Source: Clostridia bacterium
GTDB taxonomy: Bacteria > Bacillota > Clostridia > Peptostreptococcales > Filifactoraceae
Direction of reading: 5' to 3'
Assembly: GCA_009929415.1 (NCBI GenBank)
Contig: SAAM01000001.1
Span: 1 to 53,196, forward strand
DNA: 53,196 nucleotides
Positions 6,675-25,861 of this stretch are shown here, one piece after another. Both the position numbers and the translations under genes were made by a program. The notes below the pieces were generated by a model. That model searched no databases and was not told where the DNA came from. It was given only the letters and a program-made list of their open reading frames with translations. The first letter of the stretch is position 1, and every line of letters starts with the position of its first letter.

Positions 6675-8303
6675 ATGAGCATGTTTTGTTATCAATGCCA
6701 GGAAACTGCAAAAGGCACAGGTTGCGAAGTCAGAGGTGTATGCGGTAAAAATGAAGAAGTAGCCAAGCTGCAGGATTTACTTATCTATGCAAACAAAGGA
6801 ATATCAGAAATAGTAATAAAGGGAAATGTTGATGTTAATTCTATTTCAGAAATCAATCATGAAGTACTTAAAAGTCTTTTCATTACAATCACAAATGCCA
6901 ACTTTGATGAAGCTGCAATAGAAAAGCAGATAAATCACGTGATCGCGCTAAGAAACGATCTCAGATCAAAATCTGGTTCAGCTGAATTAGGCGATGCTGC
7001 GATGTTTGAAGTGACTGACAGGGCATCTATGGTAGAAAAAGCTTCCAAGGTCGGAGTGCTTTCTACAGAAAATGAAGATGTCCGTTCACTCAGAGAAATG
7101 ATAATCTACGGACTTAAGGGTATGGCTGCCTATACACACCATGCGCTTAATGCAGGAAAGGAAAACCCTGAAATAAGTGCATTCATTTATGAGGCTCTTG
7201 CTGCAACACTCGACGATACTCTTTCAGCAGATGACCTTGTTGCTCTTACACTCAAAACTGGACAGTTCGGAGTAAGTGCAATGGCACTTCTGGACGAGGC
7301 AAATACTTCCAAGTACGGAAATCCTGAAATAACAAATGTTAACATAGGCGTAAGAAGCAATCCGGCTATTCTTATATCAGGCCATGACCTTACTGATCTC
7401 GAGATGCTGCTTGATCAGACAAAAGGAACTGGCGTAGATGTATACACTCACAGCGAGATGCTTCCTGCTCACTACTATCCTGCCTTCAAGAAATATGACA
7501 ACTTTGCCGGAAACTATGGAGGTTCATGGTGGAGACAGGTTACTGAGTTCGAGACTTTCAATGGACCAGTTCTTTTCACTACAAACTGTATAGTCCCTCC
7601 TAAAAAAGAAGAAATCAGAGATCGCATATTCACAACCGGTGCAGCTGGATATCCAGGAAGCATGCATATCGAGGCAGATGAAAATGGCAAAAAGGACTTT
7701 TCAGCTATAATCGAAATGGCCAAGTCATGTCCATCACCAACAGAAATCGAATCTGGATCAATCGTGGGCGGATTTGCTCATAATCAGGTGTTTGCTCTTG
7801 CAGACAAGGTGGTTGATGCTGTTAAATCCGGCGCAATAAAGAAATTCTTTGTTATGGCTGGATGTGATGGCAGAATGAAGTCAAGAGAATACTATACTGA
7901 GTTTGCTGAAAAACTTCCACAGGACACTGTAATCCTAACCGCTGGATGCGCAAAATACCGTTACAACAAGCTTAACCTTGGAGACATCGGTGGAATCCCA
8001 AGAGTACTAGACGCCGGTCAGTGCAACGACTCCTACTCACTTGCAGTCATCGCTCTCAAGCTTAAAGAAGTTTTTGGGCTTGAGGATATAAATGATCTGC
8101 CTATAGCATACAACATAGCATGGTATGAGCAGAAGGCAGTCATAGTTCTTCTTGCGCTGCTGTACCTTGGAGTTAAGAACATCCATCTTGGACCTACTCT
8201 TCCAGGATTTCTTTCTCCAAACGTAGCAAAAGTACTGGTTGAAAAATTTGGTATTGCCGGAATCGGAACTGCAGAGGATGATATCAAACTGTTTCTTTCT
8301 TAA
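6675..8303 (+). CDS. hcp: Hydroxylamine reductase / hybrid cluster protein (copy 1)
   Basis: A 542-aa Hcp. The N-terminal cysteines C5, C8, C17 and C23 (Cx2Cx8Cx5C) bind the ordinary FeS cluster and are of the strict-anaerobe (class I) pattern. The C-terminal half carries the hybrid-cluster motifs, including [30 protein letters not shown] and [10 protein letters not shown]. Hcp reduces hydroxylamine in vitro and is now seen mainly as a nitric oxide reductase/protein nitrosylase in vivo. It is monocistronic: own promoter at 6581-6608, GGAGG 8 nt before ATG, and a terminator at 8331-8370. A short 3' tract is almost identical in DNA to hcp-2 although the rest has diverged. Confidence 0.95.
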
Positions 8304-10447: not shown

Positions 10448-12091
10448 TTACTTCTGCTCTCCGAAGAATAGGTTTATGTCGTCTTCTACTGTTCCGATTC
10501 CAGCAATACCAAAGTTTTCAACAAGTACTTTTGCAACATTTGGTGAAAGGAATGCAGGAAGAGTTGGTCCAAGATGGATGTTCTTAACTCCAAGGTACAG
10601 CAGCGCAAGAAGAACTATGACCGCTTTCTGCTCATACCATGCTATGTTGTATGCTATAGGCAGATCATTTATATCCTCAAGCCCAAATACTTCTTTCAGC
10701 TTGAGAGCGATTACTGCAAGTGAGTATGAATCGTTGCACTGTCCTGCATCAAGCACTCTTGGTATTCCGCCGATATCTCCGAGGTTAAGCTTGTTGTATT
10801 TGTATTTTGCACAACCAGCCGTAAGGATTACTGCGTCTTTAGGAAGCGCCTGTGCAAAATCTGTATAGTAGTTTCTTGATTTAGCTCTTCCGTCACATCC
10901 TGCCATTACTACGAATTTCTTTATTGCCCCTGTCTTAACAGCATCTACAACCTTATCTGCAAGTGCAAGAACCTGTGCATGAGCAAATCCGCCAACAATT
11001 GATCCAGTCTCAATTTCAACCGGTGAGTCGCATTTCTTTGCAAGCTCGATTATTGCTGAGAAATCTTTCTGATCTCCGATTTCTCCTGGTATATGAGCAC
11101 ATCCAGGGAATCCTGAAGCTCCTGTAGTGAACAGACAGTCCTTGTAGCTGTCTTTTGGTGGCACTATACAGTTTGTTGTCATCAGTATTGGTCCATTGAA
11201 TGATTCAAACTCTTCTTTTTGTTTCCACCATGCATTTCCGTAGTTTCCAACAAAATGAGAGTATTTCTTGAATGCAGGATAGTAATGAGCTGGGAGCATT
11301 TCGCTGTGGGTATAAACATCAACTCCTGTTCCCTCAGTCTGCTCAAGAAGCATCTCAAGGTCTCTGAGGTCATGGCCTGAAACAAGTATTCCAGGATTTT
11401 TTCCTACTCCTATGTTTACGCTTGTAACCTCAGGATTTCCGTATGTCGAAGTGTTTGCCTTATCAAGCATAGCCATTCCTGAAACTCCGTATTTTCCTGT
11501 TTCAAGTGTAAGCGCAACAAGATCATCAGCTGAGAGAGTATCATCAAGTGTTGCTGCAAGAGCTCTCTGAAGGAATGCATCTACTTCTACATCATCTTCT
11601 CTGAGTACATTAGCATGCTTTGAATATGCTGAAAGTCCCTTTAATCCATATGTTACAAGTTCTCTAAGTGAACGGACATCTTCATTCTCTGTAGAAAGTA
11701 CGCCTACCGTTCTTGCTTTTGCATCCCACTCGCTCTTGTCAGCATTCCATGTAGCAGCTTCTGAAAGTCCAGCCTTGTCGTCAAGCAGGTTAAGTAATTC
11801 GTTTCTTGCATCTAAAGTTTCCTGAATCTTTGCAACTATTGCTTCGTCATCAAAGTTTGCATTTGTGATTGTAGTGAAAAGATTTAGAGTTATAAGGTGG
11901 TTCACGTCTTTAGAAACTTCCTTGCCTTCTTTTCTGAGTCTTGTAGTTATTTCAGATATTCCCTTGCTTGCCCATACAAGAAGATCCTGCATTGCAGCTA
12001 CCTGAGGGTTCTTTCCGCATACTCCCATTTTTGTACATCCTGTGCATCCAGCTGTTTCCTGGCACTGATAGCAAAACATTAAATTTTCCAT
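10448..12091 (-). CDS. hcp: Hydroxylamine reductase / hybrid cluster protein (copy 2)
   Basis: A 547-aa second Hcp with cluster cysteines C7, C10, C19 and C25 plus an extra C16, and all C-terminal hybrid-cluster motifs (NCIVPP, GCDGR, AGCAKY, GQCNDS). It is related to copy 1 over its whole length but clearly diverged in the N-terminal 200 residues, while around 8077-8195 / 10566-10684 the two genes are nearly identical in DNA. Unlike copy 1, it lies just downstream of asrABC and has its own promoter with a TGTAAC-type palindrome at -41.5, so the copies are likely under different control. RBS AAAGGAG, 6 nt from ATG. Confidence 0.95.
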
Positions 12092-23272: not shown

Positions 23273-23301
23273 AAAGAGCTGAAAACCTTGGTTTTCAGCT
23301 C
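23273..23301 (-). terminator. Terminator of the TIGR00300 gene pair
   Basis: GAGCTGAAAACC / GGTTTTCAGCTC, 12-bp perfect stem, 2-nt loop, five T residues on the minus strand, 10 nt after the stop codon. Confidence 0.9.
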
Positions 23302-23311
23302 TGAGATACTT

Positions 23312-24406
23312 CTAATTAGCAAGCGCTCTTCCTATATGTTTTATAAAATCCTGAGTATTGGTGACTACAGACGTCGCAGTCAGAGTTCCTCTGTCCGCAA
23401 GCTTGTTTACTGCGAACTCCTGGATGTCAACAGTATACATATATACCGGTCTTACGATTCCATCAAACTCATTGTACGAAGGAGTCATATTACCAGTTGC
23501 AATCGTGAACAGCGCAGTTGAAACCATTATTATCGTAGATGTCTTCTTTGCATGTACTCTCATTGCATCCTGTGCCTGTCTTACATCATTGTATGTGCCA
23601 GGAAGAGTAAATCGATCTCTTATCGTACCCGAAAGAACAAATGGAACTCCGCATTCTACACAGGCTTTTATTATCCCGTCCTTAGCTTTTCCTGTCTTTA
23701 TGAATTCTTCAATCGAACCAGCTTCTCTTACCATATTTATGGTCTCATAATAATTACCCATCGTAGTCTGTTCTTTGACAAAAACTTCCTGACCCCATAC
23801 AGTGTCACATACTGCACACTCAAGGTCAAAGGCAGCCAGACTTGTTCCGCAAAGTATAGCATCCACATACCCGTCTCTTATGAGCTTTTCGAGCGCTGAT
23901 CTTGTTCCACGGTCAAGGCTTATTGCAGTTCCGAGTACCCATGTCACGTAGCCGTTGTTTTTCTTCTCGTTTCTCAGTATGTCATAAAGCCTGTCGTAGT
24001 CAACAGAAAATGCAGTCTCTCTGGATCTTCCGCATCTGAATGCAAATGTATCAGAGCATTTGAGGCTGGCATTGAATCCGTGTGCATACATGAATATGCC
24101 TTCGCTTCCGTCTTCTTTTCTGCCCACTGCAACTTTGTCGCCTTTTTTAAGATTTCTGAGCTCTACTACCCTGAGGCTTTCATTTCCTGGCTCATCATTT
24201 ACAACGCACGCTGAGTCCATTCTGCTTTTTGTTGCAAGAATCCATTTTCCGTTAACTTTAAAGTATTCAGGAAAAACTGAAAGGGCATGGTAGTTCTCTG
24301 GCGAAACTCCTTCTTTTTCTACTTCGACTAATTTTACATCTGGTGCATTTATAAAAAAATCTGTATTAAAATCTGGTGCTTTATATTTTGGCATTTCAAA
24401 TTTCAT
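23312..24406 (-). CDS. TIGR00300 (LOR/SDH, archaeal ornithine cyclodeaminase) family protein, divergent paralogue B
   Basis: A 364-aa protein of the family whose archaeal members (MJ1480 type) and cyanobacterial ArgZ/AgrE domain act as NAD-dependent ornithine cyclodeaminases. It aligns along its length but has replaced several family-invariant motifs: GNALATHD is GTSLAAFD (187-194), the GGHRHH region is GNYYET (217-222), SIRDDGPLP is TIRDRFTLP (261-269) and TMLHS is ALFTI (298-302). It keeps the C-terminal NKLADRGT (334-341) and GNMTPS. It lacks about 50 residues of the archaeal N-terminal domain. It is second in the pair, 45 nt after paralogue A. A catalytic role is doubtful; it may be a partner subunit. 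Confidence 0.8.
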   Translation of the reverse strand: MKFEMPKYKAPDFNTDFFINAPDVKLVEVEKEGVSPENYHALSVFPEYFKVNGKWILATKSRMDSACVVNDEPGNESLRVVELRNLKKGDKVAVGRKEDGSEGIFMYAHGFNASLKCSDTFAFRCGRSRETAFSVDYDRLYDILRNEKKNNGYVTWVLGTAISLDRGTRSALEKLIRDGYVDAILCGTSLAAFDLECAVCDTVWGQEVFVKEQTTMGNYYETINMVREAGSIEEFIKTGKAKDGIIKACVECGVPFVLSGTIRDRFTLPGTYNDVRQAQDAMRVHAKKTSTIIMVSTALFTIATGNMTPSYNEFDGIVRPVYMYTVDIQEFAVNKLADRGTLTATSVVTNTQDFIKHIGRALAN

Positions 24407-24451
24407 ATTTCTACTCCTGCTTTATATAAAAGTGGATTATCCGCTTTAAAT

Positions 24452-25528
24452 CTATTTAATAAGTCCTCTTTGAACATTAACAACAAAATCCTGAACATTC
24501 GTCACAATTGGTCTGACTGCTATATATTCTCTTGCCGCCATAACCTTGTTAACTACGTTTTCAGTTACATCTACACTGTACATGAAAACCGGTACTATGC
24601 TGCCATCCTCCCTGACACTGTAGCTGGAAGCAAGCTCTGCAGCAGACACAGAATGGAGCATTGTCGCCATCCCTATTATTAAAGTAGCCTTGTCGGTCTG
24701 CTCTTTCATTGCATTGAGACCATCTGGAATGTTTGTATACACCTCAGGCAAAGGTCCGTCATCTCTTATAGATCCTACAAGTACATATGGAATATCCAGC
24801 TTGTCGAGAGTCTTTATAAATCCGTCCTTTACATTTCCTTCTTTTATGAAATCTCTTATAGAGCCTGAACGCCTTACCTCATTGAGAAGATCAAGGTGAT
24901 TGTAATGTCCCATAGGCATTGACTCCTGAGTATATATATTCTGTCCAAGTGCAGTATCAAGATATCCAGCCTCTAAATCATGTGTTGCCATGGCATTTCC
25001 CGCAAGAAGTCCCTGAACATATCCATTTTCTGCAAGCTCGGAAAGCCCTATTCTTGTGTAGTAGTCAAATACTACTGAAGGTCCCAGAACCCATAGAATA
25101 TGCCCGCCGTTTTCCTTTTCATGGCGCATAAGTTCAATCAGATAATCATAGTCATTTGTGAATGAACTTTCGACAAATCTGCCCGGCTCTGATACGACAC
25201 TTTTATCAAACCCATCTTTATGAACATATATTCCATTTTCCACCGAAGCATCTTTTCCTAATACGACTTTATCGCCAACTACAAGATTGTTCAGCTCTTT
25301 AATTACTATTTCATCAGATTCCAGAACTGCTACGCAATTTTGTGAATTACGCTTTGGAATTATCCAGCAATTTTTATGATTGTAGTATGCCGGCATATGG
25401 CTTGTCAGATAAAAACCTGATGGAGCCACTCCGTTTTTTGTAACTTCTCCAAGTCTTATTTCTCTTGAATTTTTAAATATCTCAGAACTAAAATCTGGTG
25501 GTGTGAATTTTGGTAATACGAAAGACAT
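24452..25528 (-). CDS. TIGR00300 (LOR/SDH, archaeal ornithine cyclodeaminase) family protein, paralogue A
   Basis: A 358-aa paralogue that keeps the family's central motifs: VLGPSVVF (147-154), GNAMATHDLE (177-186), MGHYNHL (206-212), GSIRDDGPLPEV (252-263) and ATMLHSV (288-294). At the C terminus the conserved KLxDRGS motif has decayed to KVMAAREY (328-335). In the best-known members the reaction is ornithine to proline plus ammonia; in a Stickland fermenter that would supply proline as electron acceptor, but the substrate here is an inference. The start ATG 25528 has GAGGAGG 6 nt upstream. It is first in a two-gene operon with paralogue B. Confidence 0.82.
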   Translation of the reverse strand: MSFVLPKFTPPDFSSEIFKNSREIRLGEVTKNGVAPSGFYLTSHMPAYYNHKNCWIIPKRNSQNCVAVLESDEIVIKELNNLVVGDKVVLGKDASVENGIYVHKDGFDKSVVSEPGRFVESSFTNDYDYLIELMRHEKENGGHILWVLGPSVVFDYYTRIGLSELAENGYVQGLLAGNAMATHDLEAGYLDTALGQNIYTQESMPMGHYNHLDLLNEVRRSGSIRDFIKEGNVKDGFIKTLDKLDIPYVLVGSIRDDGPLPEVYTNIPDGLNAMKEQTDKATLIIGMATMLHSVSAAELASSYSVREDGSIVPVFMYSVDVTENVVNKVMAAREYIAVRPIVTNVQDFVVNVQRGLIK

Positions 25529-25861
25529 GAGTTTCCTCCTCAATAATTCAATTTATAAATATAATAATTATTTTCCAGAAATTTTCTGAAAAGATAGTTA
25601 TTTTAATAACTTTTGATTTGTGTTTATTTTAAAGTTTTCTGTGTTTTCAGTTTCGATTTTATATATTTATAACGAAATATAGTTATTATTATAACATTAT
25701 ATTTTTCAAATATCTACAAAAAAATCAAAAATTGTTGAATTAGTTTTAAAAATTTAATTAATATACACAAATTTGTAATCTTCAGAAAACAATGATATGA
25801 CTGGCTTTGATTATATTTTTGTAATAAAAAAGACAGGTGAAATAACACCCGTCTCATCTCT
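25529..25861. other. 333-nt AT-rich intergenic region upstream of the TIGR00300 pair
   Basis: No gene is visible. It holds two palindromes close to the operon start: CAGAAATTTTCTG (25576-25588) and AGTTATTTTAATAACT (25596-25611), plus several TATAAT-like sequences farther upstream on the minus strand. The right end holds the CsaA terminator. Confidence 0.6.
25826..25853 (-). terminator. Terminator of the csaA-like gene
   Basis: GACGGGTG / CACCTGTC on the minus strand (one G-U pair), 6-nt loop, then a run of six T residues, about 8 nt after the stop codon. Confidence 0.85.

Follow-up and report, generated by a model that had tools for sequence, protein, structure and literature searches.

Can two neighboring genes, each of which resembles a gene for ornithine cyclodeaminase, encode a single enzyme between them? 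To address this question, we analyzed a 53,196-nt stretch of contig SAAM01000001.1 of a Clostridia bacterium (hereafter the window), where two consecutive open reading frames on the minus strand encode the paralogous proteins A and B. Judging from their sequences and those of their relatives, A and B are very probably active only in combination, as a mixed enzyme that converts ornithine to proline.

The two genes are separated by 45 nt and share one reading frame, and their products are 36% identical over 364 columns (Table 1). With a putative promoter before A and a putative terminator after B, the arrangement looks like a bicistronic operon. The closest named genome is that of Proteocatella sphenisci, whose B and A proteins are 92% and 89% identical to those of the window. 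Elsewhere in the window lie two paralogues of another kind, hydroxylamine reductase (Hcp) genes in opposite orientation (6675–8303, plus strand; 10448–12091, minus strand). Per 100 bp, their DNA identity is 88–96% over the final 300 bp and about 47–81% before, a pattern that points to gene conversion of the 3′ ends.

Table 1. Features of the A–B locus, with positions in the window
Feature	Position	Strand	Remarks
Subunit A	24452..25528	-	ATG start, 358 aa; ODC_var-like; active-site half predicted to be retained: "top"
Subunit B	23312..24406	-	364 aa; ODC_var; active-site half predicted to be retained: "bottom" plus N-terminal
Promoter-like site upstream of A	25688..25716	-	TAGATA-17-TATAAT, extended -10; consensus scan only
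Terminator-like hairpin directly 3′ of B	23275..23302	-	12 pairs, T tail
A GNAMATHD, set 1 intact	24977..25000	-	N183, H188 in 38/38 A; Asn/His family-invariant
A GHYNH, set 1 intact	24896..24910	-	H213, H216 in 38/38 A
A SIRDDGPLP, set 1 intact	24746..24772	-	S258, D262, G263, P264 in 38/38 A
A ATMLH, set 1 intact	24653..24667	-	H297 in 38/38 A
A KVMAARE, degenerate KLxDRG, one-residue insertion	24527..24547	-	Insertion in 38/38 A
B RMD, set 2 intact	24215..24223	-	38/38 B
B FAFRCGRSRET, set 2 intact	24014..24046	-	F117, F119, R125 in 38/38 B
B GNMTPSY, set 2 intact	23474..23494	-	38/38 B
B NKLADRG, set 2 intact	23387..23407	-	K333, L334, D336, G338 in 38/38 B
B GTSLAAFD, degenerate GNAxxTHD	23825..23848	-	Motif alignment
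B MGNYY, degenerate and shortened GHYxH loop	23747..23761	-	2-aa deletion in 33/38 B
B GTIRDRFTLP, degenerate GSIRDDGPLP	23600..23629	-	Motif alignment
B STALFT, degenerate xTxLHS	23504..23521	-	Motif alignment

To which family do the two proteins belong? The NCBIfam model NF052526 (ODC_var), named "putative NPN-dependent ornithine cyclodeaminase," aligns from residue 1–2 to the end of both, with B over its cut-off of 440 bits (477.5) and A just under it (422.5). Both also pass the Pfam model PF21570 (ArgZ-like_C_2nd; A 157.6 and B 166 bits, gathering cut-off 27). An earlier note on this DNA had called them TIGR00300 paralogues; with 188.7 bits for A and 196.0 for B, both fall far below the cut-off of that model (410.8), and ODC_var is the proper subfamily. 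On these matches, A and B are members of the ArgZ/AgrE C-terminal (ODC_var) family. Among solved structures, MMP1218 (3c2q) and the C-terminal domains of AgrE and ArgZ (6lrg, 6juy) come closest to them; these have the same fold (Z 27–33), and their family-wide invariant residues are all found in A and B combined. Unlike A and B, these TIGR00300/MMP1218, AgrE, and ArgZ proteins carry all motifs on one chain. The archaeal N-terminal domain and the arginine dihydrolase domain are missing from both A and B. The earlier note was right that most of the archaeal N-terminal domain is absent, but, because A and B match the ODC_var model end to end, this absence extends to the whole subfamily and is no peculiarity of the pair. 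Single-copy ODC_var enzymes, the ancestor group in the tree, resemble A and B in full-length match, fold, and motif positions; they hold both motif sets (defined below) in each chain, whereas the pair divides the sets between two subunits.

How are the conserved motifs distributed between A and B? Relatives were collected from whole genomes and named contigs: 38 A and 38 B (including a few cases of one genome reached twice), 62 single-copy sequences (S), and 8 more distant sequences of archaeal, cyanobacterial, and clostridial origin. Residue numbers follow the single-copy sequence S_G365. All family-wide motifs are carried by the S sequences and the distant relatives. Every A (38/38) has kept one set of them, set 1 (GNAxxTHD, GHYxH, DDGPLP, and LH), and A has lost RMD, FxF, SRE (VES in the A of the window), the Gln of helix 267–278, GNMTPS (AELASS in the A of the window), and KLxDRG. 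The loss of the C-terminal KLxDRGS motif from A, as first described, is thus one part of a wider loss, and K333 and R337 are still present in most A. Residue by residue, P155, N183, H188, L199, H216, S258, D262, G263, P264, and H297 are retained in 38/38 A, and most or all of these residues are gone from B; M63, D64, F117, F119, Q276, A300, G302, P306, L334, D336, and G338 are retained in 38/38 B and lost in A. G154, G182, D189, R260, D261, D325, and R337 are retained in both. Neither protein therefore carries both motif sets in one chain—A is without set 2 and B without set 1—and the pair jointly holds both. All the motifs quoted in the earlier note were found: central ones kept in A and altered in B, and NKLADRGT and GNMTPS kept in B.

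The two patterns of loss are complementary. In S, 108 columns reach a conservation of 93% or more. Of these, A has lost 29 and B 23 with no overlap, where 6.2 shared losses would be expected (P = 2.7e-4); the family-wide columns alone give 12 lost in A, 12 in B, and none shared (P = 0.03). The sequences behind both P values are phylogenetically related through one duplication, but the pattern is maintained at nearly 100% across deep divergence. The complementary loss first noticed between two tandem paralogues holds in 38 A and 38 B, compared with 62 S, and is stronger than initially stated. Indels mark the same motifs: all A have one extra residue in KLxDRG that is absent from every B, single-copy, and outgroup sequence, and the GHYxH loop is shorter by two residues in 33 of the 38 B. 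In deep-branching pairs (Clostridium bowmanii, L084, G307, and G396), B still has N183, S258, or H297. Pairs in which B holds some of these set-1 residues and A is already without K333 (L082, L083, L084, G307, and G396, the last two also as L040 and L041) are possible intermediates that would reveal the order of loss.

Do the two genes ever occur apart? A lies directly upstream of B on the same strand in all 31 contigs with B, and B never occurs without A; the pair is conserved together in its homologues. The 38 gene pairs span three phyla, with representatives in Filifactoraceae, Peptoniphilaceae (Anaerococcus and Peptoniphilus), Clostridiaceae, Aerococcaceae (Falseniella and Facklamia), Spirochaetota (Treponema), and Synergistota (Pyramidobacter). 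Each of the 32 pair genomes contains two PF21570 copies over cut-off, no more and no fewer, and thus has no single-copy enzyme left, meaning that the pair replaces the single enzyme. In the tree, A forms one clade (SH-aLRT 100) and B another (99), both nested inside S, which points to one duplication and excludes separate duplications in deep pairs such as G307 and G396. Pairwise distances among A correlate with those among B (r = 0.89; best of 2,000 permutations, 0.39). The dN/dS values relative to Proteocatella sphenisci, at high dS, are 0.050 for A and 0.027 for B, which indicates that both genes are under purifying selection and excludes pseudogene decay. A scan of viral contigs found no relatives.

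Where do the lost residues lie in the fold? By the secondary structure of the first of two models of an A–B read-through chain (described below), the columns lost in B comprise 14 at the top of the sheet (the C-terminal strand edge), 1 at the bottom, and 7 in the GHYxH-bearing insert, and those lost in A comprise 10 at the bottom, 4 at the top (A156, Y273, Q276, and F329), and 14 in the N-terminal domain. This split by sheet edge (Fisher P 5e-4 within the Rossmann-type domain and 5e-7 overall) is a topological argument based on predicted secondary structure. Since opposite sheet edges are unlikely to line one pocket, we infer that sets 1 and 2 meet across the subunit interface, the only place where a complete site would form. 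The in-frame A–B read-through chain, folded twice with different alignments, gave pTM values of 0.78 and 0.77 (pLDDT 78), which suggests a confident relative placement of the two halves but, for a fusion of this kind, speaks to a complex only indirectly.

The ranking of fold relatives offers a precedent: after 3c2q (Z 32.8), ArgZ, and AgrE come deoxyhypusine synthase (Z 15.4 over 220 residues at 7% identity, a related fold with no sequence-level membership) and the sirtuins. In deoxyhypusine synthase, each active site is formed by residues of both monomers (PMC7432094); of the two sites in the trypanosomatid DHSp/DHSc heterodimer, one is functional and the other dead (PMC7581365, PMC3663545). 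DHSc and DHSp (6dft) are, like A and B, paralogous subunits, their fold is distantly similar, and complementary loss of active-site residues between paralogues is what we find in A and B; the A–B heteromer itself, and the corresponding one-functional, one-dead arrangement of its sites, are predicted from sequence and model. Combining the A top with the B bottom leaves a complete set and combining the B top with the A bottom a doubly broken one, as a DHSp/DHSc-like arrangement predicts. The two systems differ in that DHSc/DHSp is eukaryotic, catalyzes a different reaction, and arose by an independent duplication, and in that DHSc alone is slightly active.

From the motif pattern and its conservation, the obligate pairing, the purifying selection, the single origin, the gene context, and the fold, we infer a physical A–B complex with the site at its interface, a substrate, and a cofactor. 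The explanation we consider likely is that A and B form an obligate heteromer (a heterodimer or dimer of heterodimers) with a split site, on the ODC_var branch of the ArgZ/AgrE-C/MMP1218 family. In the single-copy ancestors, each site would have combined set 1 of one subunit, on the upper edge of the Rossmann-type sheet (GNAxxTHD, GHYxH, SIRDDGPLP, and xxLH), with set 2 of the other, in the N-terminal domain and lower edge (RMD, FxFR..SRET, GNMTPS, and KLxDRG), so that a homodimer would have had two equal sites. Following a single tandem duplication, A would have retained set 1 and B set 2, and neither alone could build a site. Of the two sites in an A–B dimer, the one from the A top and the B bottom would be complete and the one from the B top and the A bottom doubly degenerate. 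That each subunit supplies part of the active site of a heteromer had been proposed from the window's sequence; the complementary losses (38 pairs), opposite fold edges, invariable pairing, and co-divergence, together with the inter-subunit site of deoxyhypusine synthase, now support it well. Some observations count against it: the four columns lost in A on the top side, the K333 and R337 kept by most A, and the set-1 residues that B still has in deep-branching pairs. A more tentative idea is that, in an obligately heteromeric NPN (nickel-pincer nucleotide) enzyme, the second, doubly degenerate site, which carries conserved indels of its own, has been kept for regulation or cofactor loading.

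Could A instead be an active homomer and B a catalytically dead regulator—a prozyme or pseudoenzyme, as had also been proposed? The His-rich set 1 kept by A may include cofactor or catalytic residues, and prozyme-type activation is known for deoxyhypusine synthase, in which DHSp raises the slight activity of DHSc alone 3000-fold (PMC3663545). However, 12 family-wide columns are lost in A itself, two of these places also bearing indels, while B keeps its half of the family-invariant residues (38/38), including those lost in A, and evolves more slowly; a pure regulator need not retain exactly the residues that its partner has lost. We therefore regard this reading as improbable. Less probable still is that A and B are two homomeric enzymes with different new reactions that are merely linked. 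The strong purifying selection on both genes speaks for this reading, but the genes are never apart in 31 contigs and 32 genomes, their trees are correlated, and their losses are complementary rather than independent.

What reaction would the A–B heteromer catalyze? The genes for ornithine carbamoyltransferase (arcB) and carbamate kinase (arcC) are neighbors of the pair at 13 and 8 loci, respectively, with arcC in most cases immediately downstream of B; other neighbors are CD0519/CD1768-type membrane proteins (9) and carriers of the AGCS amino-acid family (10). By gene content, this neighborhood is one of arginine–ornithine catabolism. D-proline reductase is a proline sink in Stickland fermentation; its PrdA subunit is present in the window's genome and over cut-off in 8 of 32 pair genomes. 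The reaction is probably ornithine cyclodeamination, which would yield proline and ammonia via internal hydride transfer. A heteromer acting otherwise (e.g., on D-ornithine, lysine, or 2,4-diaminobutyrate, or by racemisation) seems unlikely. In its favor, neither protein is over the TIGR00300 cut-off, the ODC_var model is itself labeled "putative," and the pair lies away from arginine genes in many genomes, the window's included. Against this stand the arcB and arcC neighbors in several genera, and set 1 of A together with set 2 of B gives the residues common to ArgZ/AgrE and the archaeal enzyme.

In 17 of 31 A–B loci, a divergent ClpB-like AAA+ protein is encoded near the pair, often directly upstream of A (examples within L054–L084 are L067:4281–6821, L063:4313–6820, and L064:9113–11647). 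Two of these proteins scored 719 and 948 bits, the ClpB cut-off being 1232. The protein might serve the A–B complex as its dedicated remodeller or activase.

Which cofactor would carry the hydride? We lean toward NPN, for which TIGR00300 is named in NCBIfam, with NAD+ as a plausible, somewhat less likely alternative. The genes larE-larB-larC follow the pair in four genomes, three of Anaerococcus and that of Criibacterium bergeronii. In the A-B-lar cluster of the latter, the lar genes are interrupted by a gene for an amidohydrolase of M20 type (TIGR01891), which lies between larE and larB at L076:10555–11778. LarC is found in 22 of 29 pair genomes vs. 170 of 391 in the class sample, and nine pair genomes have LarC without a clear LarA, which leaves the pair as the obvious NPN client; in Proteocatella sphenisci, larB, larC, and larE are grouped on one contig. 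In favor of NAD+, the AgrE crystal structure 6lrg contains, by its entry title, ornithine and NAD+, the next folds, deoxyhypusine synthase and sirtuins, use NAD+, and LarC is absent from 7 of 29 pair genomes, including two with 99% completeness, and from 3 of 13 single-copy genomes. A strict NPN requirement is not upheld by these absences. LarB and LarC were not found over cut-off in four genomes with the pair, G307, G396, G408 (Falseniella ignava), and G411 (Facklamia languida), where the pair either functions without NPN or relies on scavenged cofactor. No larB, larC, or larE matches came from the assembly of the window itself, but that assembly is fragmented into 820 contigs and 88.8% complete. 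With some pair genomes lacking lar genes, the cofactor assignment is the weakest link.

What does the pair mean for the family? In CC-licensed PMC papers, only part of the literature, we found no report of a paired form of ornithine cyclodeaminase. Annotation is affected, as either gene taken singly would be labeled ornithine cyclodeaminase, and one gene cloned singly would probably yield a dead enzyme. Sequence alone predicts which residues of this little-studied family act in trans. The pair is predicted to be a clean natural case of residue-level complementary degeneration, fixed in three phyla, by which a homomer with two equal shared sites became a heteromer with a single live one. It would thus be a bacterial parallel, in a related fold, to the trypanosome deoxyhypusine synthase heteromer and, if NPN is used, would add one more enzyme fold besides LarA to the users of this cofactor.
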